Source: an uncultured Lachnospiraceae bacterium
GTDB taxonomy: Bacteria > Bacillota > Clostridia > Lachnospirales > Lachnospiraceae
NCBI GenBank assembly: GCA_946491665.1
Contig: CAMLYL010000030.1
Coordinates: forward strand, 1-33,197
Length of the DNA stretch: 33,197 nucleotides
Direction of reading: 5' to 3'
The notes under the pieces are model-generated. The model saw only the letters and a program-made list of their open reading frames with translations. It was not told where the DNA came from and did not search any database. Below are positions 4,565 to 27,890 of this stretch, in pieces. The position numbers and the translations under genes were made by a program. Positions within the stretch are counted from its first letter, which is position 1. Each line of letters opens with the position of its first letter.

Positions 4565-5545
4565 TTGGATATGGTAGCAAGGGCGTGCGGATGTTCAAAG
4601 TCTACTGTATCCAGGGCAATTTCCGGAAAAGGGCGGATCAGTGAAGAATTGAAAACGCGGATTCTGCAGTATTGCGAGAAAAGTGGTTATCGGACTGATG
4701 TGGCAAAGCGTTTTTTGCAGACATTGCGTACAAAAAATCTGCTTGTGCTTCTGCCGCCGGATCAGGAATTGTCAGAAATTCCCTTTTTTTTCAACTGTAT
4801 CATGGGGATATGTGAAGGCGCTCAAAAGGCAGGATACAGCATTTTGCTGATGACCGGAGGGAGCAGTGAGGTTCAGGAACTCCGGACGATTCTGGAACAG
4901 AAGAAGGCGGACGGCGTGATTTTGCTGAGAGTCAGAGTGCATGATCTGGTGATAGAATATCTGCAGGATCAGGAACTGCCTTTTCTGGTTATTGGAAATT
5001 CACAGAAATATTCGGTACAGTATGTTGATAATGATACAGAGCGGGCCTGTGAGGCGCTGACAATCTATCTGCTTCAGAAAAATCTGTCAAATATGGCGCT
5101 GATTGGCGGAAACAGAGAGCATATCGTGACATGGAAACGATTGAAAGGGTTTCAGGTGGGACATGCGATTTGTAATAAGAAGGTCAATCAGAATCAAATT
5201 TATCTGGATTGTAATACCAAAGATGTTGTGTATGAGGTAACAGAAAATATCCTGCGCGGTTCCGCAGATTGTATAGTGTGCATGGATGACAGAATCTGCT
5301 ACCAGGTGTTGGAAAAACTGCATAAGATGAATGTTGTTGTCGGAAGGGATATTGAGGTGGCATCATTCTATGACAGCCGTTTTTTAAGAGGATACTCGGA
5401 TTCTATCACCACTCTCCAGTTTGACGAAAAATCATTGGGACTGATGGTATGTGAGAAGCTGATCAGCCGGATTGAAAAGGGAATTTATGAATCGAAGATG
5501 TTTACGGGATATCGCATTATCCCCAAAAATCAGGCAAAAAGGTAA
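4565..5545 (+). CDS. LacI/GalR family transcriptional regulator
   Basis: This is a 326-residue repressor of usual family length. The N-terminal helix-turn-helix is clear (LDMVARACGCSKSTVSRAIS, hinge GYRTDVAKRFLQ), followed by a periplasmic-binding-protein-like sensor domain (LLVLLPPDQEL, ADGVILLRV, IPFLVIGN-type strands) ending about residue 320. The start is unusual: the conserved VTL lead-in of the helix-turn-helix lies upstream of TTG 4565, and the frame is open only to 4541, with no ATG/GTG there. TTG 4565 (AAGG five bases before) or a rare ATA at 4547 behind GGGGGGTGAAGGG are the options. The galactanase gene follows 61 bp after the stop with no terminator, so this regulator probably responds to galactan-derived sugars and controls both. 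Ligand is inferred from context only. Confidence 0.85.
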   Translation: MDMVARACGCSKSTVSRAISGKGRISEELKTRILQYCEKSGYRTDVAKRFLQTLRTKNLLVLLPPDQELSEIPFFFNCIMGICEGAQKAGYSILLMTGGSSEVQELRTILEQKKADGVILLRVRVHDLVIEYLQDQELPFLVIGNSQKYSVQYVDNDTERACEALTIYLLQKNLSNMALIGGNREHIVTWKRLKGFQVGHAICNKKVNQNQIYLDCNTKDVVYEVTENILRGSADCIVCMDDRICYQVLEKLHKMNVVVGRDIEVASFYDSRFLRGYSDSITTLQFDEKSLGLMVCEKLISRIEKGIYESKMFTGYRIIPKNQAKR

Positions 5546-5606
5546 TGGAGGAAATTTTCAGGGGATACTTGTGCAGTATAAAGTATTCCGGAAGGAGGAA
5601 ATGGAT

Positions 5607-7973
5607 ATGAAAAAGTATCTGAAATGTGCGGCGGCGCTGGTGTTATCGCTTTTTATGGCCTTTACACTGCTTGCACCGGGATTAACCGGGGAAGCGGCGG
5701 CGGCAGAAAACAGTGAAATGGCTCTGGGATCAGATATATCAGCAGCGGCCACCAACAATACATATTACAATAATAAGGATGGAGAATCCAAACCATTGTA
5801 TGATATATGCAGGACAGATTATGAGATGAATACTGTTCGGCTGAGAACCTGGGTAAATCACAGCCGCGGACAGTGCAGCGAAGAGGCGATTATCAGCTAT
5901 GCAAAGAAATGTCAGGACGCGGGACTTCGGGTAATGATAGACTTCCATTATGCAGATAATTGGGCGGATCCGGGAAAACAGCCGCCGCCGGAAGACTGGA
6001 ATGTAACAGATGATACGTCATTTGCGGAGGCAGAGCGTGTAGGGCAGCTCTTATATGATTATACTTATAATTTCCTGATTCATATGAAGGAAGCCGGGGT
6101 GACTCCGGAATGGGTTCAGGTAGGTAATGAGATTACAAACGGGATGTTATGGCCGCTCTGTAATATTTCCAATTTTGACAATTTTGTTTATGTACTGCAA
6201 AAGGGAATAGACGCAGTCAGGGATGCATCCCCGGAAACCAAAGTAGTGCTTCACATTGATAACGGCGCTGATACAGAAGCTGTGACAGAATGGTATGAAA
6301 ATATTGTAAATGCAGGCGTTACTGATTTTGACGTAATGGGACTTTCTTTTTATCCGAGAGATAATGATCCTACGGTCAGCATTGAGTCTCTGGCGAACAC
6401 CTTTGATTCTCTGTACAATGAATTTTGCGTTGGTACAGACCGGGAGATCATGGTGGTGGAAATCGGAGCCAATTATATGGAAAATGCCACTGAAAATCAG
6501 CGATATAATATGCTGGTTAATGTGATCAACGAGTTAAAGGCAGTTCCGGACGGCCGGGGTGCCGGCTGTATTTACTGGGAAATTGAAAATTATGAGATGA
6601 CGGGCTCCTGGGGAGACAGACGGCCCAACAGGGTCTGGGAAGCTTTCTCGCCCGGTGCGCAGCTGATTAATGAGAATCCTGTAACCGGCATATCTCTTGC
6701 GGAGGGCGATGCTCTTACTCTGCAGCAGAATGATATTTATCAGATGACTCTGAATGTGACTCCGGAAAGTCCGGATATTACCAGAATGGTATGGAGCAGT
6801 TCCAACCCGGAAGTATGCACCGTGACGAATAAAGGACAGGTGAATGCTGTGGGGCTGGGAGAATCGACAATTACTGTCACAAATTATGCCGGCAGCGATG
6901 GAAGTTATGAGACATATACCTGTTCCTGTACAATTACTGTTACTCCGGAACAGCCGGGATTGAAAAACGGAGGATTTGAGCTGGGAGATGACGGACGCTG
7001 GAAATATGCAGAGGGCAATAAGGGCACACCGACTCTGGGAGCAAGCTCCAACGCTATGAGCGGTACCTGTTCCCTGCATTTCACAGGAGGTACAGAGGAT
7101 CTTGATTTTACATTCTATCAGGATATCGAACAGCTTCCTCCCGGAAAATATCGTCTGACCGGTTATGTAATGGGAGATTCCGGTGTGACAAGTCTGAATC
7201 TGTTTGCTGACACAGCAGAGAGTACATATATTTCTGACATTTATAAAACCATTGGATGGGGCGGCAGCGGAAACTTTGTACAGATGGTATTGGATGATAT
7301 CGAAGTGCTGGACGGCAGTCTGCGTGTAGGCGCTCATGCGGAAGCGGTTTATAGCGGCAGTGAGGCATGGGGAGATTTTGATAATTTTACCCTGGAACTG
7401 GTGGAAGCATATGATAAAGAATATGTGCCGGTTATTTACGATGATGTGAACGATGCTCTTGTTCCGGATGAAAATTACAGTCTGAGCGATTATCAGGAAT
7501 TTCTGAATAATGTAACAACTGTAACAGTCAATGGGGCAGAGTGTACATTGTCTGATATTATTGATGAAAACGGTTTTATAGTGACAGATTCTGAACTTTT
7601 GGCAGAACCGGGAAGTTATGAAATTGTAATTACTTCCGAGGGCTATACAAATCCTCTTACTTTTACCTATGTGAAGGAGGAGACCGAAGAACCGGAAGAC
7701 CCTGACGAGCCGGACGTTCCGCAGAATCCTGATGACACGGGAAATCCGGATCAGCCCCAGAATCCGGACCCGGATGATAATTCAGGACAGGTTCAGCAGC
7801 CGGGTGATCAGAGCACAGAGGGAACAGATACTTCTTCTGCAGGGAAGACGGCAGTAAACCGGAAGGATTCACCTGAAACTGGTGATCCGTCGGCAGTATT
7901 TGCATTGATGGCGCTGGCGGCAGGATCTGCCGGTGTTGGCGGAGTTTCCTGGAAATTTAGAAGAAAAAGATAA
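5607..7973 (+). CDS. Cell-wall GH53 endo-beta-1,4-galactanase
   Basis: A 788-residue secreted enzyme that cleaves beta-1,4-galactan (pectic arabinogalactan I). ATG 5607 is chosen because GGAGG (5594-5598) is eight bases away; ATG 5601 is too close. A signal peptide spans about 1-33 (KK, then ALVLSLFMAFTLL, AAAA cleavage area). The GH53 barrel covers about 40-345, with VRLRTW, MIDFHYADNWADPGKQ, the acid/base Glu175 in GNEI and the nucleophile Glu285 in VVEIGANY. A BIG2-type Ig domain (about 355-445), a CBM61-like galactan-binding domain (about 450-598), a further Ig-like segment, and a Pro/Asp-rich linker (about 692-752) follow. The end is a sortase-like signal: SPETG at 755, a hydrophobic stretch, then RRKR. 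It should be anchored to the wall and process galactan outside the cell. No terminator follows directly. Confidence 0.9.
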   Translation: MKKYLKCAAALVLSLFMAFTLLAPGLTGEAAAAENSEMALGSDISAAATNNTYYNNKDGESKPLYDICRTDYEMNTVRLRTWVNHSRGQCSEEAIISYAKKCQDAGLRVMIDFHYADNWADPGKQPPPEDWNVTDDTSFAEAERVGQLLYDYTYNFLIHMKEAGVTPEWVQVGNEITNGMLWPLCNISNFDNFVYVLQKGIDAVRDASPETKVVLHIDNGADTEAVTEWYENIVNAGVTDFDVMGLSFYPRDNDPTVSIESLANTFDSLYNEFCVGTDREIMVVEIGANYMENATENQRYNMLVNVINELKAVPDGRGAGCIYWEIENYEMTGSWGDRRPNRVWEAFSPGAQLINENPVTGISLAEGDALTLQQNDIYQMTLNVTPESPDITRMVWSSSNPEVCTVTNKGQVNAVGLGESTITVTNYAGSDGSYETYTCSCTITVTPEQPGLKNGGFELGDDGRWKYAEGNKGTPTLGASSNAMSGTCSLHFTGGTEDLDFTFYQDIEQLPPGKYRLTGYVMGDSGVTSLNLFADTAESTYISDIYKTIGWGGSGNFVQMVLDDIEVLDGSLRVGAHAEAVYSGSEAWGDFDNFTLELVEAYDKEYVPVIYDDVNDALVPDENYSLSDYQEFLNNVTTVTVNGAECTLSDIIDENGFIVTDSELLAEPGSYEIVITSEGYTNPLTFTYVKEETEEPEDPDEPDVPQNPDDTGNPDQPQNPDPDDNSGQVQQPGDQSTEGTDTSSAGKTAVNRKDSPETGDPSAVFALMALAAGSAGVGGVSWKFRRKR

Positions 7974-12939: not shown

Positions 12940-13596
12940 TTAAACCATGGGCTTCAGATCAGGGGAAATGATCAGCTGTGCCTCTGTGGCAGCCTGAATC
13001 TCCTCTACAGTGAACTCAGGGTTATACTCGGTAAGCACGATGCCTTCCGGTGTAATCTCCATAACGCCCATTTCTGTAACGATCATATTTACCTGTCCCT
13101 TTGCAGTCAGCGGTAATGTACACTCTTTTAAGATCTTCGGAGAGCCCTTCTGAGTGTGCTCCATAGCAACGATTACCTTTCTGGCGCCTACGACAAGATC
13201 CATTGCTCCGCCCATACCGGGAACCATTTTGCCCGGAATGATCCAGTTTGCAATGTCACCCTTCTCATCTACCTGGAGGGAACCAAGTACGGTAGCGTCA
13301 ACATGTCCGCCGCGGATAATGCCGAAAGAAGTGCAGGAATCAAAGAACATACCGTCTTTCTCGATACCGGCCGGCTGTCCGCCTGCGTTTACGATATAGG
13401 GAGCGTCCGGTGAATCGGGATCAGCAGCTGCAAGACCGATGAATCCGTTCTCAGACTGTAAGGTAATCTTGATGCTGGGATCAACGTAATCGGGAACCAT
13501 AGTAGGAAGACCGATACCTAAATTTACAACGTCGCCGTCATGAATCTCTTTTGCAACACGTTTTGCGATAAAAGGCTTGATTTCACTTCTTTCCAT
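12940..13596 (-). CDS. 3-oxoacid-type CoA-transferase, subunit B
   Basis: A 218-residue protein of the usual subunit B length. The catalytic glutamate is in QSENG (Glu49), followed by the glycine-rich GFIGL. Also typical are [14 protein letters not shown], the [23 protein letters not shown] stretch, and [12 protein letters not shown]. Class I CoA-transferases move CoA between acetyl-, butyryl-, acetoacetyl- or similar acyl-CoA and a free acid through a glutamyl-CoA intermediate. Substrate (butyrate/acetoacetate or a hydroxy acid) is not decided by sequence. The start lies one base after the stop of subunit A, so the subunits are co-translated. A terminator follows. Confidence 0.92.
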
Positions 13597-13597
13597 C

Positions 13598-14275
13598 TTA
13601 TGCTTCCTCCTTTAATACTAAGTAATCAACGAAGATATGAGGGGTCTCCACGTAATCCGGGCCGATCTCGCCTGCCGGTACGATCTTCTCTACCTCAACG
13701 ATAACAGTGTCGGCAGCAGAAGCCATGGGGATGTTGAAGTTCCGTGTAGAACCTTTGTACCGCACATTACCGGACTCATCAGCGATATATCCCTGAATGA
13801 TAGCTACATCGCCGCGAATTGCTTTCTCAAGCAGATATTCTTTGCCGTCCAGCTCGATAACCTGTTTGCCCTCCAGTGTTGTCGGGGAGCTGCTGTCAGC
13901 TACGATGGTACCGATACCGGTGGGAGTAAGGAATCCGCCAAGACCGGCTCCGCCAGCGCGGATCTGCTCTGCCAGCGTACCCTGGGGCTGAAGCTTCAGG
14001 TCGAGTTCTCCGGCATTGAATTTTGCGGCAACTTCTTTATTCAGACCAACGTGTGTTGCAATCAGTCTCTTGATACATCCGTTGTGAAGCAGTCTGCCGG
14101 TGCCTTCGTTCTCAAAACCACCGTCGTTGCATACAACAGTCAGATCTTTTGCAGTTACTTCGTTACAGATAGATTTTGCTGTTCCGTTTGTCATGAAGCC
14201 GCCGACTAACACGGTATCGCCGTCTTTGATCAGTGCGGCTGCTTCCTTTGCAGAAATAACTTTTGTTTTAGCCAT
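13598..14275 (-). CDS. 3-oxoacid-type CoA-transferase, subunit A
   Basis: The product has 225 residues from ATG 14275, which has GGAGGGA just before it; a longer frame to 14338 has no ribosome site. It shows the subunit A signature: [14 protein letters not shown] near the N-terminus, and the [16 protein letters not shown] loop that contacts CoA. It forms a heteromer with subunit B. The operon is minus-strand, read from an extended -10 promoter at 14347-14354. It might feed acyl-CoA pools used by the HgdC/HgdB-like genes 1-4 kb away on the same strand, but a terminator and an opposing gene separate them, so any link is inferred. Confidence 0.92.
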
Positions 14276-14346
14276 TTCTTTCCCTCCTAAATGAATGATG
14301 TAATTATATACAGATATGGAAAACAGGATTTCCCACAACTATTTCT

Positions 14347-14719: not shown

Positions 14720-15226
14720 ATGGCAACAAAGAAAACTACCGGTGCTGCTGTAGACGCAACGATCATCAGTGAAGAGACAGTAACGACAGATGATAAAGTT
14801 GCGGCAGCGAAAAAAGCGAATGCAAAAGTGAAAGAAGCAGGAAAAGCGGCTGCGAAGAAAAATGCTGAGGCAACCGCAGCGGTTGTAAAGGATACTGCAG
14901 AGAAAGCTGTAGAGAAGACAAAAGACGTAGCTGAGAAAACAAAAGCGGCTGCGAAGAAGACAGCGGCAAAGACAAGAAAGGCCGTAAAAGAAGCTGCTGA
15001 GGCTGCTCCCAAGCGTAAATATACCAGAAAGCCCGTAAAGAATGTTGTTCTCCAGTACATGGGTCAGGAGATCAGCGAGGAAGAGCTGACAGAGAGAGCT
15101 CTTGCACAGTTTGCGGCAACTGAGGAAACAGTAGCTGTGAAGTCCATTACGCTGTACATTAAGCCGGAGGACAATGCAGCTTACTATGTAATCAATGAAC
15201 AGTATACCGGCTGTGTGAAGTTTTAA
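14720..15226 (+). CDS. Lys/Ala-rich DUF6465-type protein
   Basis: A 168-residue protein with a strong ribosome site (AAGGAGG before ATG). Residues about 25-105 are a low-complexity Ala/Lys/Glu region with AAAKK and KTKAAAKKTAAKTRKA blocks, like histone H1 or phasin tails and probably one long amphipathic helix. Residues about 107-168 form a small folded domain (VVLQYMGQEISEEEL ... SITLYIKPEDNAAYYVIN) that I recognise as the DUF6465 family of Lachnospiraceae and relatives. Function is unknown; the basic tail suggests nucleic-acid or polymer binding in the cytoplasm. It is a single-gene unit with its own promoter and a perfect bidirectional terminator. Confidence 0.8.
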   Translation: MATKKTTGAAVDATIISEETVTTDDKVAAAKKANAKVKEAGKAAAKKNAEATAAVVKDTAEKAVEKTKDVAEKTKAAAKKTAAKTRKAVKEAAEAAPKRKYTRKPVKNVVLQYMGQEISEEELTERALAQFAATEETVAVKSITLYIKPEDNAAYYVINEQYTGCVKF

Positions 15227-15347: not shown

Positions 15348-16307
15348 TCAGATCTCGCCCTGCCGTACTTCTCCGCGCTCGCAGCGATTTCCCCAGGAAT
15401 CAATCAGTTCGCCCTCGCGGTAAACGCAGATAATCTCGCAGTGATTGGGACAGTTGGGGCAGACCACCTCACGGGTGAGGAAGTCCATATCCGCCACATC
15501 AAAGGAGAAGGGACGTTCTACGCCGCAGCCCTGAGCCAGAATGGCGGCGCCGTAGCAGCCCATGAGGTGACCGTTCTCATCTACAATAATCTCTTCGCCC
15601 AGGGCGTCGGCAAAAGCTTTTACCACGCCCTCGTTCTTGCTGACGCCGCCCTGGAAAACAACGGGAGCGGCGATTTTTTTGCCTTTTCCGATATTATTTA
15701 AATAGTTATTGGCAACCGCATGACAGAGACCTGCGATAATGTCCTCCTTTTTATGGCCCATCTGAATCTTGTGTACCAGATCGGATTCAGCGAAAACGGT
15801 ACAGCGGGCTGCGATGGGAGTGGGATTTTTGCTGCTTAATGCAATTTTTCCGAACTCTTCCACTTCCACGCCGAGACGTCTGGCCTGGCTGGACAGGAAG
15901 GAACCTGTTCCGGCGGCGCAGAGAGTGTTCATGGCGTAATCCACGGCAACGCCGTTTTCCACGCAGATGATCTTGGAATCCTGTCCTCCGATCTCCAGAA
16001 TGGTGCGGACATCCGGGTGCAGTGTGGTGGTTCCCACGGCGTGCGCGGTAATCTCATTCTTTACGATGCTGGCATTGCACATGGCTCCTACCAGCTTCCT
16101 GGCGCTGCCGGTTGTTCCGGCGGCCACTACCTGATATTCGTTCTGATCCAGCTGGTCTCCCAGGGAAGCAATAACTTTCTTTGCCGCGCCCATGGGGTTC
16201 CCCTCTGTCCAGAGGTAAATACTGGCCAGAATGTTTTTCTCTTCGTCAATAATGACGCCTTTGGTTGAAATCGAACCAATGTCAATTCCCATATATGCTT
16301 TTTTCAA
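15348..16307 (-). CDS. HgdC/BcrAD-type ATPase activase with Cys-rich tail
   Basis: A 319-residue member of the acetate-kinase-fold ATPases that drive single electrons into 2-hydroxyacyl-CoA dehydratases and benzoyl-CoA reductases. Visible are the phosphate loop GIDIGSISTKG, the helix-cluster-helix cysteines in NTLCAAGTGSF and AARCTVFAESD that hold one [4Fe-4S] between two subunits, and the adenosine site GGVSKNEGV. The last ~40 residues are an added Cys-rich tail (CPNCPNHCEIICVYREGE), an extension beyond the plain HgdC core (about 260 residues) that may hold another metal centre. The start is TTG 16307 behind GGAAG; six bases separate it from the preceding gene. Last gene of the four-gene operon; it should energise the two HgdB-like subunits. 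Oxygen-sensitive by family. Confidence 0.88.
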   Translation of the reverse strand: MKKAYMGIDIGSISTKGVIIDEEKNILASIYLWTEGNPMGAAKKVIASLGDQLDQNEYQVVAAGTTGSARKLVGAMCNASIVKNEITAHAVGTTTLHPDVRTILEIGGQDSKIICVENGVAVDYAMNTLCAAGTGSFLSSQARRLGVEVEEFGKIALSSKNPTPIAARCTVFAESDLVHKIQMGHKKEDIIAGLCHAVANNYLNNIGKGKKIAAPVVFQGGVSKNEGVVKAFADALGEEIIVDENGHLMGCYGAAILAQGCGVERPFSFDVADMDFLTREVVCPNCPNHCEIICVYREGELIDSWGNRCERGEVRQGEI

Positions 16308-16313
16308 GTTCTG

Positions 16314-17480
16314 TTACTTCCTTTCTTTCTGATCATTCGGGGCCTGTGCCCGTTTCATGGAGAGCATATCGTAAAAGGCCTCCAGCCGGGTCTCAATACC
16401 GGTGTCGCTGGTCTGAGTATCGTAGCTCATATACAGGATGGGAATCTTGTAGTCGGCGCTGATATTGTGCAGCACCGGAATACAGTCCATCTCCGGAGTA
16501 CACCCGAAGGATTTGATATGTACCAGGCCGTCAAATCCCTTTTTCGCGTAATATTCCGCCAGGGTGACGGTGGAGACCGCAGAGCTTCCCATATCGTATT
16601 TTACATATTTGGAGCTTTGTTTTTTCTGGATGTCCACCCAGATGGAGGAAGGGAATTTGTGCAGGTCATAGTGGATATAATGCCGCAGCTTTTTCAGTGT
16701 AGATTCCTCCGGGCAGATAAACAGGCTGTGGGAAAGGTTCATCCACCGATGGACCTCCGCCCCCATTTCCGCAAGCTTTTTTTCTACTTCGTGATTGGAA
16801 AAGGGATCCATAATGGTGAAATATTCACCCACAACGCCGATCCGCAGCGGGCGTTCCGGTTTATCAAGGGGGATCGCCTTAAAATCAGCCATGGCGCGTT
16901 TGAAAATGCGGTTTACGTCCCGCAGTTTTTCTGCCTTTCGCATTTCGGCCAGAAAACGGTTGTAAACTTTGTCAAAAGATCCTTTTTCTTTCTCAAAGCC
17001 CATATTCCGGCGGTAATAGTCCTCCACCTTGTCGATGTTCAGAACCATTTTAAAGGTAGCCGGAATGGACGCCGCAATCTGAAGCAGCGTGGCATGGGGA
17101 GCGTATTTCTTCATGCCCTTAATCATACCGAAGATATTTTTGTAACGGAACAGAGTCAGATTGAAAATTTCGAAATCATAGCCCATATCCTTTAAAATCT
17201 GTTCGTGAAGTTCTCCGTAATATCCCAGCCGGCAGGTACCTCCGGTCTGGATCAGGACATTGGCGCCCTGTTCCAGGGCTTCCAGGTAATTTCCCATATG
17301 GCATTTAAAAGGGGCACAGACAAAATCGGGACTGTATTTGGCGCCCAGCTCAATGGTGCGCTTGGTCATGGCCGGAGGGCTCATGTAGTCCAGATGAAGT
17401 CCGTGATTTACAAAATATTTGATGGCGATGTCGTAATTGCCAAGCTGCGGGTAGCACAGCTTATATTGCTTTTCCGGCAT
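16314..17480 (-). CDS. HgdB/DUF2229-type dehydratase-like subunit (large)
   Basis: A 388-residue protein from ATG 17480, which has AAAGGAGG before it; the longer frame to 17543 lies inside the upstream gene. It overlaps that gene by 20 bases, a sign of coupled translation. It belongs to the 2-hydroxyacyl-CoA dehydratase-related (CoA protein activase) group. Cysteines likely to ligate an iron-sulfur cluster sit in FVCAPFKCHMGNY, GGTCRLGY and SFGCTPEMD. The C-terminal block DTGIETRLEAFYDML is shared with the neighbouring protein (SAGVETRLESFIDII), so the two are paralogous subunits and may form a heterodimer, as HgdA/HgdB do. Substrate unknown. Related domains occur in the anaerobic plasmalogen synthases (Pls). 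Confidence 0.75.
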   Translation of the reverse strand: MPEKQYKLCYPQLGNYDIAIKYFVNHGLHLDYMSPPAMTKRTIELGAKYSPDFVCAPFKCHMGNYLEALEQGANVLIQTGGTCRLGYYGELHEQILKDMGYDFEIFNLTLFRYKNIFGMIKGMKKYAPHATLLQIAASIPATFKMVLNIDKVEDYYRRNMGFEKEKGSFDKVYNRFLAEMRKAEKLRDVNRIFKRAMADFKAIPLDKPERPLRIGVVGEYFTIMDPFSNHEVEKKLAEMGAEVHRWMNLSHSLFICPEESTLKKLRHYIHYDLHKFPSSIWVDIQKKQSSKYVKYDMGSSAVSTVTLAEYYAKKGFDGLVHIKSFGCTPEMDCIPVLHNISADYKIPILYMSYDTQTSDTGIETRLEAFYDMLSMKRAQAPNDQKERK

Positions 17481-18396
17481 TTGCAGTCGCCTCCTTTCGG
17501 AAACGGATAATATCAATGAAGCTTTCCAGGCGGGTTTCCACACCGGCGCTTCCGTCCTGGCTGTCCAGCAGCAGATTCAAAATGGGACGGTCCTTGATAC
17601 GCCGGATGATCATTTCATTGATCATGGAATCCGGACCGCAGGGGAAGGCGGTAATCAGGATAATGCCGTCGATTTTGTCGTGGTATTTCCAGATGGCGCC
17701 CAACAGCTCCCGGCTCATAATCCAGGGAACGTTATCGCAGATATGACGGGAATCCTCCTGTGCCTGTGTCAGATCAACAGCATCGGAACAGACCGGGAGC
17801 GCATCCAGCCGCTCAATTCCTCTTAAAATCGGCTTTCCGATATATTCATCATAGAGGTTGTAGCTGTGACCTACCACCAGAACCCTGATCTTATCGGCGG
17901 CGAGAGCCGCCTCCTGATTCCGGATTCTCTTCTGCTGATCCTGGATCCAGGCCGTCCTTGCCTTCTGCCAGGCTGCATCAGCTTCTGACCTGGAGGCGCC
18001 CAGTTCCATTCCGAGACGGATATAGGCCTCATTCTCAGGCTTTTTCTGCTGAATATCAACATCACAGGAAATAAAACAGATGTCCTTTGACCGGAAGGTG
18101 TTGGTGCACATATCGTATATGGCTTCAAACCGGGTGCAGAGGATACCGTCCTTTCCGTAATTGGCGACGCGGGGGACAAACACTTTGTCGCATTTCCCTT
18201 CCAGGGCAGCTACATGACCAAGATAGAGCTTGCTGGACAGGCAGTTCTCATCGATGGCATAATAGTTGCCGGCGTCTAACAGGTTTTTATTTGTGTGCGG
18301 ACTCAGTACCGTTTCGATACCCAGTTCCCGGAAGAAAGTGTCCCAGAGAACGGCGTAACGGTAGTAAAGCAGCGCGCGTGGAATTCCTATTTTCAT
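17461..18396 (-). CDS. DUF2229/HgdB-type dehydratase-like subunit (small)
   Basis: A 311-residue protein beginning MKIGIPRALLYYRYAVLWDT, the usual DUF2229 opening (IGIPRAL..Y...W..FF..LG). Possible cluster-binding cysteines lie in ENCLSSKLYLGHV, GILCTRFEA and AFPCGPDS; all three line up with cysteine positions in the following gene's product. The C-terminal GVETRLESFIDII block is likewise shared. I read it as the second subunit of an iron-sulfur reductase or dehydratase powered by the activase two genes on. The ribosome site is CAGGAG before ATG 18396, 14 bases after the adenylation-reductase gene. In many Firmicutes these domains are fused in one large protein; here they are split. Confidence 0.75.
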   Translation of the reverse strand: MKIGIPRALLYYRYAVLWDTFFRELGIETVLSPHTNKNLLDAGNYYAIDENCLSSKLYLGHVAALEGKCDKVFVPRVANYGKDGILCTRFEAIYDMCTNTFRSKDICFISCDVDIQQKKPENEAYIRLGMELGASRSEADAAWQKARTAWIQDQQKRIRNQEAALAADKIRVLVVGHSYNLYDEYIGKPILRGIERLDALPVCSDAVDLTQAQEDSRHICDNVPWIMSRELLGAIWKYHDKIDGIILITAFPCGPDSMINEMIIRRIKDRPILNLLLDSQDGSAGVETRLESFIDIIRFRKEATANAGKAI

Positions 18397-18410
18397 TTTT
18401 TACTCCTGAA

Positions 18411-21400
18411 CTAATCAATATATCCTTTTTTCTTAAAGTATTTCAAATATGCGGCAATCATTTTCTGGTTTACCGGCGGGCAGGAAATGCCGGACTGTCC
18501 CAGAAGAAGCCGGGTATTGCTGGTGTCGTACACCGGATCTTTGCCGACGAAATGCCGCAGTACATTGGGGTTCCTGTCGGTTCCGCCCTCAAAGAGACAC
18601 TCCAGCAGCACCATGGCATTTTCAGACGCATCTGATTTTTTGATCCGCCGCTTCCAGAGGGGGAAGGGGATATGATGCACAGTATAGCCGCATTTTTTAA
18701 TGGCGGCAATGACTCCCTTCAGGGTCTGGGGCTTCGGATTTACCAGATTAAACGCATGGCCCAGAGCATCTTCCTTGCGGGAAATATAAATCAGAGCCTC
18801 CGCTACATAATCTACCGGAGTCATATGGAAGGTATAATTTGCATGGGGGACAGCCTTCATCTGAATTGTGCTCACAAGAATGCGGCTGACCATATCATCC
18901 ATTTCCCAGATTCCGTTTGCTGCTCCTGTGATATCGCCGGGGCGGTAGACCACTGCTTTTACGCCCCGCTGCCGGGCAATATTGACCAGTTTTTCTGACA
19001 CCCATTTTGTCTCGGAATAAGACAGGGTAAAACCGTGCCAGCTGCTCAGGGCATCGTCTTCCATCACATGTTTTCCGCGGTTTGAAGGTGTGTCATAGAC
19101 ACTGTAGGAAGAAACATAGTGGTAGTATTTCGGCTGTCCGCTGCAGGCCAGGCGCAGTGTTTCCACAGTGCCGTTTACATTGGTTGTCTTCAGGAAATCA
19201 TAAGGGAACACGAAATTTAAAATAGCTCCGTTATGATAAATGACTTCTGTGCGTTCCGCCAGTTCCTGCCATGCAGAGTCATCCAGTCCCAGCATGGGAG
19301 CGGACAGGTCGCCGGGGACAGGACGGAGATACTTTTCCATTTCCTCCTGCCAGCAGTTGTAGTGTTTCATATTATCCTTAAGACGGGTCAGTCCTGCTTC
19401 TTTGGAATCTGCGCGGACCAGACAATGGATTTCCAGTCCGTCATGAGGATAATACTTAAAAATAGAACGGATCAGCTGGGCGCCGAGGAAGCCGGTGGCG
19501 CCGGTCAGGAAAATCCTGCGGCATTCCGCCGGGGACTTTCTGTATTCGCCGGAGAGCTGAATCGTCTCATCCAGCCGGCATTCATTCGAAAGATTTACGG
19601 CTTTTGAAGTGTTCCGGCTTCCGGACAGAACCGAGTGGATATATTCGGTGATACCCATGACGGAAGCGTCCCTCAGAAGCTCACGAAGATCCAGCTTGAT
19701 GTGGAATTTCTTCTCTATGTTATTTACCAGTTCAAATCCCATGAGAGAATCTCCTCCCAGAGCCAGGAAAGAGTCGTTAAGATTGAAATGGTCTATTTTT
19801 AACACTCTCTGGAATGCTGCCCGGACCTGAACAAAGATCTCGTCTGCTTTGTCGATCAGATCCTCCGGCCATTCCTGGGAACGATCCGGATTTTCGCTGC
19901 CGGTCTCGCAGAGCAGATTTTTCTCAGGATGCGCAACCTGATCCTCGTGACTGCTGTAGAGAATCGGAAGCTTTCCTTCCTGGTACAGCGTGCGCGCCTT
20001 CAGCATCTGAAGCTTGCGGTTGTCTGTCCGGGGAATTGTATCCTGGGGAACAAAAACCACATCATAAAAGGAAAAGGCAAACCGGTCAGAGACTGCTTTG
20101 TTAATCTGCTGCGTCCGGCGGACAAAATCTTCTGTGGGTTTTGATTCCACCACTGCGATAATCTGTTCTTTTGTATCGGAAGTGCAGGCAAAAAAGCCGT
20201 AGGCGCTTCCGGCAAGCGCCGGGACACAGCGTCCGATGGTTACCTGCAGATCGCTGGGATAAATATTGTGGCCGTTTACGATCAGCATTTCCTTAATGCG
20301 CCCGGTAATATAGAGATGACCCTGATAGAGAAATCCCAGATCTCCGGTTTTATAGAAATTGCAGTCGTATCCTTCCAGCTTTACGTAGAAATTCTTATTA
20401 TCCCGGTGATTGCCCCAGTAGCCGTCCGCTACACTGTCGCCGGCGAGAAATATCTCGCCGATGCGTAGTTCCGGGTAAACCTTTTTGGTTTTGGGATTGC
20501 CGATCACAATGGTCAGATCCTTGACGGGCGCTCCTACGCTGACAATTTCTTTTACGTTTTCGCCGTCTTCTACAATGACGGCGCGGTTTTTCTGATAAGC
20601 CTCGTAGTCCAGCTTCAGCGTACGGTAGTCATGGCTGGCAAAAGTAGCCAGGCAGACGTTTTCGGATACGCCGTAGCCCGGAGCCATGGCGTTGAGATCA
20701 CAGTGAAACATTTTTATAAAGCGATCCACCGTTTTTGCGCTGATAAACTCAGAGCCGTTTATAAAATGAGTTACCTGGGACAGGGAATACTGAGCCGTTT
20801 CTTCCTCGGAGAAAATCCGGGTACAGGCATCGTAAGCGGATCCCGGGCCTACTGTCAGCGTAATTTTAAAATCCGAGATCAGGCGGAGCCACAGCTTCGG
20901 ATTCTCCAGAAACCGAAGGGTCTGCAGAAAATATCCCTGAGACCAGGTGGCAAGCAGGGGCATGCAGATCGTTACTACCAGACCGAGATTATGGAAGAAC
21001 GGAACCCAGGTCGCCAGCGATACATGATCAAAGGTGTAGCAGTGGAAGCACTGTTCCAGGTTTTTCATCAGATTCTTCCATGTAACGCGGACGCCCTTGG
21101 GGGCGCTGGTGGAGCCGGATGTATACTGCAGATAGACAAGCTGATTCTCTTTTGCAGGAACGATCACATCCCTGCGGCGGTAGGGAAGCAGTTTGTCTGT
21201 GTAAATACGTTTCAGGCGGATCGTATCCCGGAAGGCCTCCTTTAAAAGACGCCCGGTGATACTGACGCCGGAACCCTGCTCCAGAGCATAGTTGGAAATC
21301 AGAGCTCTGGGGCGGCAGGATTTTAAAACAGAAATAAAGCGTTCTATCTTATCCTCATCCAGCGGGGGAGGAATAATGGTGAAAACGACTCCTGCCATCA

Positions 21401-21656
21401 TACAGCCATACACGGCATAGACAGTTCCGAAATCCTGCATGGAAAAGATGACGGCCCGGTCGCCGGGGCGCAGTCCCTTTTTCCGGAGCATATAGGCGAT
21501 TTCCAGAGCCTTCTGATACAGCTCGCCGATCGTATGATCTTCAAGAATCCACTTTTCCGTTTCGTCATCAAAATCCACAAAACGGTACAGCGCCCAGTCG
21601 CCCTCCGTTTTTACCTTTTCCTGTAAAAAGTCGATAAGTGTTTTGATCTGATTCAT
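18411..21656 (-). CDS. Adenylation-carrier protein-thioester reductase (A-T-R) enzyme
   Basis: A 1081-residue, three-domain protein. Residues about 1-560 are an adenylate-forming domain of fatty acyl-AMP ligase/NRPS type: YTSGSTSAPKG (178-188), GYGVSEN (328-333), YKTGDL (435-440) and a late Lys548. Residues about 600-680 are a carrier protein with the phosphopantetheine Ser637 in LGGDSL. Residues about 712-1080 are a thioester-reductase domain: TGATGFLG (718-725) for NAD(P)H and the catalytic Tyr880/Lys884 (YSETK). It should activate a carboxylic acid with ATP, load it on the carrier and release it by reduction as an aldehyde or alcohol, like carboxylic acid reductases. No condensation domain is present, so a single acid is handled. 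First gene of an operon with the HgdB/HgdC-like trio; a fatty acid substrate is inferred from the FAAL-like start. Confidence 0.85.
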   Translation of the reverse strand: MNQIKTLIDFLQEKVKTEGDWALYRFVDFDDETEKWILEDHTIGELYQKALEIAYMLRKKGLRPGDRAVIFSMQDFGTVYAVYGCMMAGVVFTIIPPPLDEDKIERFISVLKSCRPRALISNYALEQGSGVSITGRLLKEAFRDTIRLKRIYTDKLLPYRRRDVIVPAKENQLVYLQYTSGSTSAPKGVRVTWKNLMKNLEQCFHCYTFDHVSLATWVPFFHNLGLVVTICMPLLATWSQGYFLQTLRFLENPKLWLRLISDFKITLTVGPGSAYDACTRIFSEEETAQYSLSQVTHFINGSEFISAKTVDRFIKMFHCDLNAMAPGYGVSENVCLATFASHDYRTLKLDYEAYQKNRAVIVEDGENVKEIVSVGAPVKDLTIVIGNPKTKKVYPELRIGEIFLAGDSVADGYWGNHRDNKNFYVKLEGYDCNFYKTGDLGFLYQGHLYITGRIKEMLIVNGHNIYPSDLQVTIGRCVPALAGSAYGFFACTSDTKEQIIAVVESKPTEDFVRRTQQINKAVSDRFAFSFYDVVFVPQDTIPRTDNRKLQMLKARTLYQEGKLPILYSSHEDQVAHPEKNLLCETGSENPDRSQEWPEDLIDKADEIFVQVRAAFQRVLKIDHFNLNDSFLALGGDSLMGFELVNNIEKKFHIKLDLRELLRDASVMGITEYIHSVLSGSRNTSKAVNLSNECRLDETIQLSGEYRKSPAECRRIFLTGATGFLGAQLIRSIFKYYPHDGLEIHCLVRADSKEAGLTRLKDNMKHYNCWQEEMEKYLRPVPGDLSAPMLGLDDSAWQELAERTEVIYHNGAILNFVFPYDFLKTTNVNGTVETLRLACSGQPKYYHYVSSYSVYDTPSNRGKHVMEDDALSSWHGFTLSYSETKWVSEKLVNIARQRGVKAVVYRPGDITGAANGIWEMDDMVSRILVSTIQMKAVPHANYTFHMTPVDYVAEALIYISRKEDALGHAFNLVNPKPQTLKGVIAAIKKCGYTVHHIPFPLWKRRIKKSDASENAMVLLECLFEGGTDRNPNVLRHFVGKDPVYDTSNTRLLLGQSGISCPPVNQKMIAAYLKYFKKKGYID

Positions 21657-21849: not shown

Positions 21850-23223
21850 ATGAGGTTGATGAAGAAGTCAGGTGCGGTTGGAATGGATATGCTTCACGGT
21901 TCCATGCTTGACAAAATGCTGCTGTTTGCGCTGCCTCTGGCAGCAGGAAGTATTCTTCAGCAGCTTTTTAATTCAGTAGATGTAGCTGTAGTGGGACGTT
22001 TCTCCAGCAGTCAGGCTCTCGCGGCGGTGGGAGCCAATTCGTCTGTGATTTCGCTGCTGGTGAATCTGTTTGTCGGGATCTCTGTCGGTGCCAATGTAGT
22101 GATTGCCAATCTGATCGGAAGAGGCGAGCAGAAGCGTGTCAGGAGAGCGGTACATACTTCACTGTCGCTGGCTCTGATCAGCGGGGTGCTGATGATGACT
22201 GTGGGACTGATTATTGCGAGACCGCTGCTGGAACTGATGTCTACGCCGGAGAATGTGATTGATATGGCAGTTTTATATCTACGGATTTACTGTCTGTCTA
22301 TGCCATTCAGTATGTTTTACGATTTCGGAGCGTCCATTCTGCGAAGTGTGGGAGATACGAAGCGGCCGCTGATCTGCCTGGTGGCAGCCGGACTGCTGAA
22401 TGCGGCGCTGAATCTGTTTTTTGTTATCGTATGCAATCTGAGTGTGTCGGGAGTGGCCATTGCCACGGTGATATCAAATGTTCTCAGCGCCGGGCTCATG
22501 CTGTATTTTCTGCAGAGAACAGATGAAAAGGTACGGGTAAATATAAAGGCTTTGTGCCTGGACAGAAGAGAATTGCTGCAGATCCTGAGAATCGGTATTC
22601 CGGCAGGAATCCAGGGTGTGGTTTTTTCCGTGGCAAATGTCTGTATTCAGTCTTCGGTAAACAGCTTTGGATCTGATGCAGTGGCCGGATCATCGGTGGC
22701 GGTAAATTTTGAGATGTTTTCCTATTATGCTGTCAACGGCTTTAATTCGGCGGTGATGACCTTTGTCAGCCAGAATCTGGGAGCCGGAAATCTGAACCGC
22801 TGTAAGAGGGCGTATGGAATCGGAATGACCTGTGCGGTGGTTACCGTATTGATTCTGAATACCTGTGTGTTTCTGGCCAGAAATCCTCTGATACGCATTT
22901 TCACAGTGGATTCTGCGGTGGCAGATTTCGCAGTCCAGAGGATGAGCATCGTATTGCTGACACATTTTCTGATCTGTTCCTATGAGATTACCGGATCGGC
23001 GCTCCGGGGGCTGGGAAGGTCGCTGGTTCCGGCCGCGCTGACTGTGTTCGGAACCTGTGTGCTGCGAATTGTTTATGTGAATACTGTGGTGGCTGTGCAT
23101 CACAGTTACCATATTCTGATGCTGGTTTATCCGGTTTCCTGGATTATGACAGGTCTGATGGTTGTGATTGCCTTCTTCATTGTCTGGAGAAAACTGCGAA
23201 AGCCGGAGAAGTTGTCAAATTAA
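21850..23223 (+). CDS. MATE family efflux transporter
   Basis: A 457-residue membrane protein with twelve predicted helices in two related halves, the normal MATE length. The N-terminal helix LLFALPLAAGSILQQLFNSVDVAVVGRF carries the P-L...Q-Q-L-F-N-x-V-D-x-x-V-V-G-R-F pattern typical of the family, and the second half repeats it (RIGIPAGIQGVVFSVANVCIQ). By family it exports drugs or metabolites against a sodium or proton gradient. The start is ATG 21850 or 21859; AGGGG and GAGG upstream serve either. It is divergent from the A-T-R operon and shares the 193-bp gap, so it could export that operon's product, but this is speculation. A terminator follows. Confidence 0.93.
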   Translation: MRLMKKSGAVGMDMLHGSMLDKMLLFALPLAAGSILQQLFNSVDVAVVGRFSSSQALAAVGANSSVISLLVNLFVGISVGANVVIANLIGRGEQKRVRRAVHTSLSLALISGVLMMTVGLIIARPLLELMSTPENVIDMAVLYLRIYCLSMPFSMFYDFGASILRSVGDTKRPLICLVAAGLLNAALNLFFVIVCNLSVSGVAIATVISNVLSAGLMLYFLQRTDEKVRVNIKALCLDRRELLQILRIGIPAGIQGVVFSVANVCIQSSVNSFGSDAVAGSSVAVNFEMFSYYAVNGFNSAVMTFVSQNLGAGNLNRCKRAYGIGMTCAVVTVLILNTCVFLARNPLIRIFTVDSAVADFAVQRMSIVLLTHFLICSYEITGSALRGLGRSLVPAALTVFGTCVLRIVYVNTVVAVHHSYHILMLVYPVSWIMTGLMVVIAFFIVWRKLRKPEKLSN

Positions 23224-25724: not shown

Positions 25725-27890
25725 ATGGAGAAAAAATTAACGGGGCGTGTTACAATTCCTACCGATATGGACGTAGTGCCGGAGACTCTGGAGCTGTTAA
25801 AGCGCTGGGGAGCGGATGCAATCCGGGATTGTGACGGGACGGATTTTCCGGGGGAGCTGAAACAGGCAGGAGCGAAAGTTTATTCCACTTATTACACTAC
25901 CCGGAAGGATAATGAATGGGCGAAGGCCAATCCCGATGAAATCCAGCAGTGCTATATCATGACAAAGTTTTATACTGCCTCGGAAGAAAAGCTGTCCATT
26001 CATCTGATGAGCGGTATCTATCCCGAGATGCTGGCCGTCAACAGCAGGGACGACATCCGCCGCTGGTGGGAAGTGATCGACCGGACGACGGGAGAGGTGG
26101 TTCCGGTGGAACAGTGGTCTTATGACGAGGCGTCGGGGGATGTGACCATTGATCCTGCAAAACCGTTTCATGATTATACGGTCAGCTTCCTGGCTTATAT
26201 TATGTGGGATCCGGTACATATGTATAATGCGGTAGTCAACGACTGGAAGGACGTGGAACACCAGATTACTTTCGATGTGAGGCAGCCGAAAACACATGCT
26301 TTTTCCCTGGAGCGTCTGCGGAAGTTCTGCCGCAGCAACCCTCATGTGAATGTAATCCGTTACACAACATTTTTCCATCAGTTCACGCTGGTATTTGATG
26401 AGCTGGCACGGGAAAAATATGTGGACTGGTATGGATATTCCGCTTCTGTCAGTCCGTATATTCTGGAGCAGTTTGAAAAGGAAGTTGGTTATCCTTTCCG
26501 GCCGGAATATATTATTGACCAGGGATACCATAACAATCAGTACAGGATTCCGTCAAAAGAGTACAGGGATTTTCAGGCCTTCCAGCGCCGGGAGGTTGCG
26601 AAGCTGGCAAAGGAGCTGGTAGATATTACCCATGAAGAAGGAAAGGAAGCCATGATGTTCCTGGGCGATCACTGGATCGGTACCGAGCCTTTTAGGGATG
26701 AGTTTAAGGAGATCGGTCTGGACGCCCTGGTGGGAAGTGTGGGAAATGGTTCCACTCTGCGTCTGATCAGCGATGTGGAAGGCGTGAAGTACAGAGAGGG
26801 ACGGTTTCTTCCCTACTTTTTCCCGGATACCTTCCATGAGGGCGGAGATCCGGTGAAGGAGGCAAAAGTGAACTGGGTGACAGCCCGGCGGGCGATTCTG
26901 CGGAAACCCATTGACCGCATCGGCTACGGCGGTTATCTGAAGCTGGCCTGTAAGTTCCCGGAGTTCCTGGATTATATTGAGAGTGTCTGCGACGAGTTCC
27001 GTCTGCTTTATGAAAATGCCAAGGGAACTACGCCTTACTGCGTAAAGACCGTGGCCGTGCTCAACTGCTGGGGAAAGATGCGCTCCTGGGGCTGCCATAT
27101 GGTGCATCATGCGCTGTATCAGAAGCAGAACTACAGTTATGCGGGGGTAATTGAAGCCCTCAGCGGAGCGCCTTTTGATGTGAAGTTTATCAGCTTTGAT
27201 GATATCCGTGAGAATCCGGGAATCCTGGACGATATAGATGTGATCATTAATGTGGGAGACGGGGATACCGCCCATACCGGCGGCGCGGAGTGGACAGATC
27301 CGGTTATTGTGGAGGCAGTACAGGGATTTGTTTACCGGGGCGGCGGTTTCATCGGCGTGGGAGAACCGGCAGGGCATCAGTATCAGGGCCGTTATATTCA
27401 GCTCCGCAATGTTCTCGGAGTGGAGAAGGAGACGGGCTTTACCCTGAATTATGACAAGTATAACTGGGAAAATCATGAGGATCATTTCATTCTGGCAGAC
27501 TGCACCCATGAAGTGGATTTCGGGGAAGGCAAAAAATCCATGTACGCCATGGAGGATACTCAGATTCTGATCCAGCGGGACAGAGAAGTCCAGATGGCGG
27601 TGAATGAATTCGGCAAAGGCCGGTCCGTTTATATCAGCGGACTTCCCTATTCATTCGAAAATACCAGGATCCTGTACCGCAGTATTCTCTGGAGCTGTCA
27701 TGATGAGGACAATCTGAAAAAGTGGTTTTCAGAGAATCTCAATGTGGATGTCCATGCTTATGTGAAGAACGGAAAGTATTGTGTGGTAAATAATACTTAT
27801 GAGCCCCAGGATACCGTGATCTACCGTGGGGATGGAAGCAGCTTCCCGGTTCATCTGGACGCAAATGAAATTATCTGGTACGAGATATAA
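25725..27890 (+). CDS. GH112 beta-galactoside phosphorylase (GNB/LNB type)
   Basis: A 721-residue protein matching GH112 along its length: start LTGRVTIPTDMDVVPET, WGADAIRDCDGTDFP, the MFLGDHWIGTEPF block with Asp315 (the family's general-acid position by my recollection, Asp313 in the bifidobacterial enzyme), VGSVGNGSTLRLISD, and the C-terminal beta-sandwich. It splits beta-1,3-galactosyl-N-acetylhexosamines (from mucin or milk glycans), or Gal-beta-1,4-rhamnose in some clostridial members, with phosphate to give galactose 1-phosphate. No signal peptide, hence cytoplasmic; it needs an importer not present here. GGAGG lies ten bases before ATG. Second gene after the amylosucrase-like enzyme, followed by a good terminator. 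Acceptor specificity is uncertain. Confidence 0.9.
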   Translation: MEKKLTGRVTIPTDMDVVPETLELLKRWGADAIRDCDGTDFPGELKQAGAKVYSTYYTTRKDNEWAKANPDEIQQCYIMTKFYTASEEKLSIHLMSGIYPEMLAVNSRDDIRRWWEVIDRTTGEVVPVEQWSYDEASGDVTIDPAKPFHDYTVSFLAYIMWDPVHMYNAVVNDWKDVEHQITFDVRQPKTHAFSLERLRKFCRSNPHVNVIRYTTFFHQFTLVFDELAREKYVDWYGYSASVSPYILEQFEKEVGYPFRPEYIIDQGYHNNQYRIPSKEYRDFQAFQRREVAKLAKELVDITHEEGKEAMMFLGDHWIGTEPFRDEFKEIGLDALVGSVGNGSTLRLISDVEGVKYREGRFLPYFFPDTFHEGGDPVKEAKVNWVTARRAILRKPIDRIGYGGYLKLACKFPEFLDYIESVCDEFRLLYENAKGTTPYCVKTVAVLNCWGKMRSWGCHMVHHALYQKQNYSYAGVIEALSGAPFDVKFISFDDIRENPGILDDIDVIINVGDGDTAHTGGAEWTDPVIVEAVQGFVYRGGGFIGVGEPAGHQYQGRYIQLRNVLGVEKETGFTLNYDKYNWENHEDHFILADCTHEVDFGEGKKSMYAMEDTQILIQRDREVQMAVNEFGKGRSVYISGLPYSFENTRILYRSILWSCHDEDNLKKWFSENLNVDVHAYVKNGKYCVVNNTYEPQDTVIYRGDGSSFPVHLDANEIIWYEI

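Follow-up and report, generated by a model that had tools for sequence, protein, structure and literature searches.

Genus-wide pairing of an adenylation-carrier-reductase gene with a split iron-sulfur system related to plasmalogen synthase in Lachnospiraceae

Introduction

Plasmalogen synthase (Pls) is composed of the modules Act1, Act2, Red1 and Red2, carried by one fused protein or by two genes. In Escherichia coli BL21, plsA genes led to Schiff staining and plasmalogen formation (available sections of PMC12838417). According to an old report given in the available sections of PMC9702350, bacteria draw on long-chain aldehydes rather than alcohols when making plasmalogens. In Myxococcus, the protein ElbD is required for ether lipids, and an aldehyde that the wild type contains went undetected in elbD mutants (available sections of PMC9131029). 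A four-gene operon that bears on both systems was identified in an uncultured Lachnospiraceae bacterium (assembly GCA_946491665.1), on a stretch of 33,197 nucleotides of contig CAMLYL010000030.1 (positions 1 to 33,197, the window). The genes encode an enzyme with adenylation, carrier and thioester reductase domains (ATR), a DUF2229 subunit, an HgdB-like subunit and an activase, the last three being referred to as the trio.

The operon is genuine and runs in this gene order on the minus strand from 21656 to 15348, and the pairing of these already known kinds of enzyme is real throughout the genus. In Clostridia, Pls-like trios that stand alone are widespread; the tie of this one to ATR hints at the molecule that is handled and offers a handle for assays. 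A description of an ATR-trio operon was not found in the literature searched, which covered few subscription journals, so one may have been published.

Conservation of the gene pair

The survey was composed of 20 genomes of the genus (two of Eubacterium ramulus), 116 relatives, 392 genomes drawn from the order and 299 from the phylum. ATR was detected in all 20 genus genomes, E. ramulus included. In 19 of the 20 linked loci retrieved, one of which comes from another genus of the same family (G040), ATR is the gene directly upstream of the trio. In the remaining locus (G013), the contig stops inside the DUF2229 gene, and ATR stands beside a DUF2229 match on another contig of that genome. This arrangement is beyond chance because ATR is present in every genome of the genus sample and its position before the trio is fixed in 19 of 20 loci, while the genes flanking the four vary between species subgroups. 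The operon is carried by the culturable strain E. ramulus ATCC 29099, beside one fused Pls-like gene, which makes direct testing feasible.

A FastTree tree was computed from 43 trios with all three genes inside the length limits (15 of the 21 linked trios among them), with a distant outgroup consisting of three fused proteins. The linked trios form a single clade (15/15, local support 0.999) nested among unlinked trios. Their HgdB-like subunits, 19 of 21 of which fell inside the length limits for this measurement, also share an insert. Measured between G220 and C332, the spacing is 113 residues in 19/19 linked subunits vs 89-100 in 71 unlinked subunits (34 from the order and 37 from the phylum); the 18 fused proteins measured have 136-140. 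The insert-bearing stretch itself contains 54 residues in all 19 linked subunits vs 30-40 in 34/34 unlinked subunits of the order; in the window it is rich in Lys, Arg and His, with a moderate helical moment of up to 0.48. A natural guess is that the carrier domain or a lipid may dock at the insert. The sequence-only reading had claimed a partnership of ATR and trio, and the neighbourhood survey supports it within the genus by occurrence, adjacency, the single clade and the private insert.

In the order sample, five of the 392 genomes match ATR at E <= 1e-60, full-length only in the window's own genome and in G258; with the G258 protein as query, no further homologue was found in 196 genomes at E <= 1e-120. 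A close activase homologue is present in 34/392 order genomes (E <= 1e-90). No ATR-like protein was detected at E <= 1e-10 in 35 trio loci of the phylum.

Relationship with fused Pls-like proteins

In two fused Pls-like proteins encoded in the window's own genome, the Act2-Red1-Red2 part is collinear with the trio. All 12 cysteine positions of Act2, Red1 and Red2 are common to the trio and three fused Pls-like proteins (two from the same genome), the comparison being with Pls-like homologues rather than an experimentally proven PlsA. The six cysteines of the activase are kept in Act2 of the three fused proteins, and the Red2 cysteines in 18/18 fused Pls-like proteins, 15 of which were hand-picked. 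The two subunits score 105-107 and 49-50 bits against Red1 and Red2, respectively, of the fused proteins of their own genome. The proposed relation to the DUF2229/HgdB/activase part of Pls-like proteins is thus upheld by collinearity and shared cysteines. The equivalents of Act2, Red1 and Red2 occupy three genes here, and no Act1 was found in the operon.

Gene organization and domains of the encoded proteins

The coordinates and spacings agree with the earlier description of four co-directional genes with junctions of 14 bp, a 20-bp overlap (if the HgdB-like gene starts at the ATG at 17480) and 6 bp (Table 1). Ribosome-binding-like sequences lie upstream of the gene starts; the activase gene begins with TTG. 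The operon of E. ramulus ATCC 29099 has an overlap of 1 bp between the first two trio genes (DUF2229 and HgdB-like) and one of 4 bp between the HgdB-like gene and the activase gene. A promoter and terminator scan found no clear terminator 3' of the activase gene, terminator-like sites numbering 10 vs 8.8 expected.

Table 1. Features of the ATR-trio operon in the window
Feature	Position	Strand	Length	Details
ATR	18411..21656	-	1081 aa	Fatty-acyl-AMP-ligase (FAAL)-like adenylation domain, carrier protein, thioester reductase domain
DUF2229 subunit	17461..18396	-	311 aa	Red1 equivalent of fused Pls-like proteins; invariant C52, C87, C253
HgdB-like second subunit	16314..17480	-	388 aa from ATG 17480	Red2 equivalent; invariant C60, C88, C332 (residue numbering from 17495)
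Codons of HgdB-like residues 250-303 (from 17495)	16587..16748	-		Insert-bearing stretch of the linked clade
Activase (ASKHA ATPase, HgdC-like)	15348..16307	-	319 aa	Act2 equivalent; C130/C169 plus four-Cys tail C283/C286/C290/C309

ATR contains the Pfam domains PF00501 (AMP-binding), PF00550 (PP-binding) and PF07993 (NAD_binding_4), all far above their cut-offs, and scores 293.7 bits against the thioester reductase model TIGR01746 (cut-off 213.35). The activase scores 165 bits against BcrAD_BadFG and 200.9 bits against TIGR00241 (cut-off 125). These matches confirm the earlier assignment of an adenylation-carrier-reductase enzyme and an activase. The solved chains nearest to ATR are the MxaA reductase 4u7w and FAALs (e.g., 3kxw). 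The best solved relatives of the adenylation domain are FAALs, with 290 bits against the FAAL family model PRK05850 (cut-off 775). Carboxylic acid reductase (CAR) was rejected as a name for ATR at 140.6 bits against NF041592 (cut-off 1300), and no acyltransferase domain was found in ATR with Pfam at E <= 0.001. The carrier motif GGDSL, the nucleotide-binding motif TGxTGFLG and the reductase motif YxxxK (as YSETK or YSQTK) are kept in 16/16 full-length ATR homologues aligned. ATR is an enzyme that probably converts fatty acids to aldehydes. In four genomes (L056, L057, L058 and L060), the adenylation domain contains long low-complexity, partly repeated inserts of variable length after residue ~365, none of which occurs in the window. 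The ATR frame is disrupted in the draft assemblies of L061, L066, L067 and L069, by draft error or decay.

The DUF2229 subunit scores 147 bits with Pfam, whereas the HgdB-like subunit falls narrowly below the cut-offs of both HGD-D (27.4 vs 28.4 bits) and DUF2229 (26.8 vs 29.4 bits). In alignments restricted by length (49 DUF2229, 52 HgdB-like and 52 activase proteins, plus the window), three cysteines are invariant in the DUF2229 subunit (50/50 sequences), three in the HgdB-like subunit (53/53) and six in the activase (53/53). As a small correction to the earlier description of two dehydratase-like subunits, the pair are related to each other and have three invariant cysteines each. Two features of the benzoyl-CoA reductase/2-hydroxyacyl-CoA dehydratase family are present, namely an ASKHA activase with C130 and C169, which we take to be the two bridging cluster ligands, and paired related subunits with candidate cluster-binding cysteines. 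Structural matches of the activase are 4eht, 9gai and 1hux. The HgdB-like family profile matches the dehydratase structures 3o3m_B and DCCP at 26 bits in the C-terminal part only, and no solved sequence was matched by the DUF2229 alignment at E <= 0.01. Subunits of 2-hydroxyacyl-CoA dehydratases and benzoyl-CoA reductases are among the fold matches of the DUF2229 subunit, with 10-16% identity in the structural rows. In L056 (2850-5042), the HgdB-like subunit and the activase share a single 730-aa open frame, possibly a fusion or a draft artefact.

Proposed function and alternative explanations

The best single guess, put forward tentatively, is a two-stage acyl-reduction module with a lipid product; a lipid is favored because of the link of ElbD with ether lipids and the reported use of aldehydes by bacteria. 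In the first stage, ATR would adenylate a long-chain carboxylic acid, load it on its own carrier domain and use NAD(P)H to reduce the carrier thioester; the product would be an aldehyde, or possibly an alcohol by further reduction. In the second stage, the ATP-driven activase would transfer low-potential electrons, one at a time, out of its iron-sulfur cluster and into the Red-type heterodimer. The heterodimer may carry out a radical reduction or dehydration on that chain or on the glycerolipid into which it is built, and the end product would be a reduced lipid, of the ether type or another. Adenylation, thioester reduction and ATP-driven electron transfer are what family knowledge would predict of these proteins; from context only, we infer that the substrate may be a fatty acid, that both stages may act on one chain and that the product may be an ether-type lipid. 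The steps beyond the aldehyde are conjectural.

An aldehyde-first anaerobic route to ether lipids is a more specific and improbable version. The free long-chain aldehyde of ATR would add to the glycerol hydroxyl of a lysolipid as a hemiacetal, and the trio, docked to ATR through the basic insert, would either dehydrate this adduct by radical chemistry, which yields a vinyl ether, or reduce it to an alkyl ether. If true, this would be a second, aldehyde-using pathway beside the diacyl-lipid route and would fit the report of aldehyde use (available sections of PMC9702350).

Several observations weigh against a lipid-forming module of ATR and trio. The HgdB-like subunit is present in 208/299 phylum genomes including the window's own (profile search, E <= 1e-40), many with at least two copies, vs 1/299 for ATR, the window's own genome, with no match in the other 298 (single-protein query, E <= 1e-90); the two counts come from unlike queries and thresholds. 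Because of these counts, the trio is judged older than its link with ATR, and the basic chemistry of the HgdB-like subunit does not need ATR. Because all linked trios belong to a single clade, the insert and the ATR link represent the same evolutionary event and are not independent. The ATR homologue of G258 (44-45% identical) has no trio on its 11.8-kb contig. No gene for an acyltransferase or a glycerol-phosphate enzyme is present in the operon. The available sections of PMC9702350 stress finished diacyl lipids as the source of anaerobic plasmalogens, and according to those of PMC9131029, ElbD was not demonstrated to act as a reductase in vitro. Only 1/5 structure models of the DUF2229 subunit was good, and the HgdB-like subunit, modelled with AlphaFold2 on an alignment of six close sequences, reached a pLDDT of no more than 38.7.

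A further point on the same side is that a fused DUF2229 (Pls-like) gene is present in 19/20 genus genomes (in G003 counted from a 793-aa fragment), beside the split DUF2229 gene in 20/20. Ordinary plasmalogens therefore do not need the operon, and a requirement of the operon for them was set aside; where fused genes are present, the operon supplements and does not replace them. In the closest genus member, G007, the split trio is present and a fused DUF2229 protein was not found in the 95%-complete draft, the control of this family search having matched 4/14 named genomes; G007 would be a natural test of the product of the split trio. Of the fatty aldehyde and ether-lipid system first proposed, the kinship with Pls-like proteins and the partnership with ATR stand, while the two refuting points that the sequence-only reading itself had named, trios mostly without ATR and a separate fused Pls-like gene, apply in part and count against it.

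The strongest of the alternatives, although an unlikely one, is that one transcript serves two independent functions, the trio keeping an ancestral clostridial role, perhaps in the spore or envelope, and ATR making an unrelated product of the non-ribosomal peptide synthetase (NRPS)-like type. The wide occurrence of the HgdB-like subunit and the G258 homologue agree with it, as do the spoVA-type genes found up to six genes upstream of the unlinked trio in 15/35 phylum loci, which also detract from the lipid module; these loci were chosen by the authors from the best hits, mostly on long contigs, so the fraction is no random estimate. The count includes a GerA-like gene at the place of spoVAF, and L194 and L199 have only the GerA-like gene and sigF. 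NCBIfam models were checked with a single representative per cluster for eight clusters of neighbouring genes, and two representatives (SpoVAEA and GerXA models) scored under the cut-off. A lysA-cluster gene follows the trio in 8/35 of the same loci. Were the trio to retain that role in the window, ATR could be no more than its neighbour; this is opposed by the gene order, which is fixed throughout the genus and also in a second genus of the family amid varying flanks, and by the insert restricted to the linked clade.

The second alternative, likewise unlikely, is that the trio dehydrates a hydroxyacyl chain on the ATR carrier, as HgdAB does on CoA, and that the reductase then frees a small metabolite, either an unsaturated aldehyde or the alcohol. 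The subunits probably belong to the fold family of 2-hydroxyacyl-CoA dehydratases, and a FabG-like short-chain reductase, which would suit hydroxyacyl chemistry and makes a second case of a reductase paired with the trio, directly precedes or overlaps four unlinked trios (L043 8005-8826, L131 11900-12649, L132 9035-9775 and L134 11996-12919; Pfam was run on L043 and L131 only). However, the subunits are nearer to Red1 and Red2 than to solved dehydratases, which match the HgdB-like subunit alone, and the operon contains neither a hydroxylating gene nor a CoA-transferase.

Reduction of a non-lipid acid, such as a phenylpropanoid from flavonoid breakdown, activated by ATR and reduced by the trio somewhat as by benzoyl-CoA reductase, is very improbable: E. 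ramulus is known for flavonoid degradation and benzoyl-CoA reductase subunits are among the fold matches, but the adenylation domain is FAAL-like and the trio resembles fused Pls-like proteins.

The two-stage acyl-reduction module remains the preferred reading. If an ether-type lipid is made, gut bacteria would own a second, aldehyde-based anaerobic route; if not, the operon would yield a new product of the radical dehydratase family.

Stand-alone trios and neighbouring genes

Stand-alone trios often lie just after spoVA-type genes and some before lysA (L192-L222, e.g., L207, L221 and L222), which suggests a forespore or spore role. In the literature searched, no description of a role for stand-alone trios and no paper linking the trio to sporulation was found; the main texts of PMC4433262 and PMC3533761 do not mention the trio terms searched. 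Additional PlsA homologues without activation domain, of unclear role, are reported from Bacillota genomes in the available sections of PMC13274423 and may correspond to the stand-alone trios. In three genomes that belong to a single genus, the unlinked trio is followed by a nitroreductase-family gene (L113 7691-8221, L114 1238-1768 and L116 4393-4923; Pfam was run on L114 only).

In the window, a MATE transporter gene at 21850 is divergent from the operon. Past the activase gene lie an opposite-strand gene for a Lys/Ala-rich protein (14720-15226) and then a CoA-transferase pair (12940-14338), ~1 kb from the activase. HgdABC systems have the CoA-transferase in the same operon, whereas here the opposite-strand gene intervenes. 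A close pair is present in 7/21 linked stretches, some of them shortened by contig ends (the window, L051, L053, L054, L065, L067 and L068), and is convergent to the operon in L065 and L067; it was therefore rejected as a fixed part of the system. CoA-transferase homologues (50-64%) also lie ~3 kb from the unlinked trio in two genomes of another genus (L124 and L136). Elsewhere, the window contains two group II intron domain matches at the extreme contig start (9-258), a GH53 glycoside hydrolase gene (5472-7973) and a 1,3-beta-galactosyl-N-acetylhexosamine phosphorylase gene (25725-27890), the latter two indicating use of plant and host glycans.

Comparison with known systems

The 2-hydroxyacyl-CoA dehydratases with their activases, DCCP/DCCP-R and the benzoyl-CoA reductases share the activase family and probably the fold of the DUF2229 subunit with the trio, whereas the low identity, the partner enzyme and probably the substrate carrier set them apart. 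Thioester-reductase NRPS-like enzymes and CARs have the same adenylation-carrier-reductase layout as ATR, with the difference that its adenylation domain is FAAL-like and that ATR scores far under the cut-off of the CAR model. According to the available sections of PMC9131029, ElbD of Myxococcus has reductase-like, acyl-ligase and carrier domains on a single chain, as ATR does, and is connected with ether lipids; it differs in its N-terminal reductase-like domain, its acyltransferase-like domain and its aerobic host, and no iron-sulfur trio is named there among the elbD operon genes. The order is thus reductase-ligase-carrier-acyltransferase in ElbD and ligase-carrier-reductase in ATR. The stand-alone DUF2229-HgdB-activase trios of Clostridia, among which the linked trio is nested, occur without ATR and, in 71/71 measured, without the insert. 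With the anaerobic plasmalogen synthase PlsA/PlsR and the glycerol ester reductase Ger, the likeness lies in Act2, Red1 and Red2 of fused Pls-like proteins, which are homologous to and collinear with the trio, with 12/12 cysteines kept, whereas the trio has no Act1, is encoded by three separate genes joined to the ATR gene and has a shorter Red2 loop (113 residues between G220 and C332) than the fused proteins.
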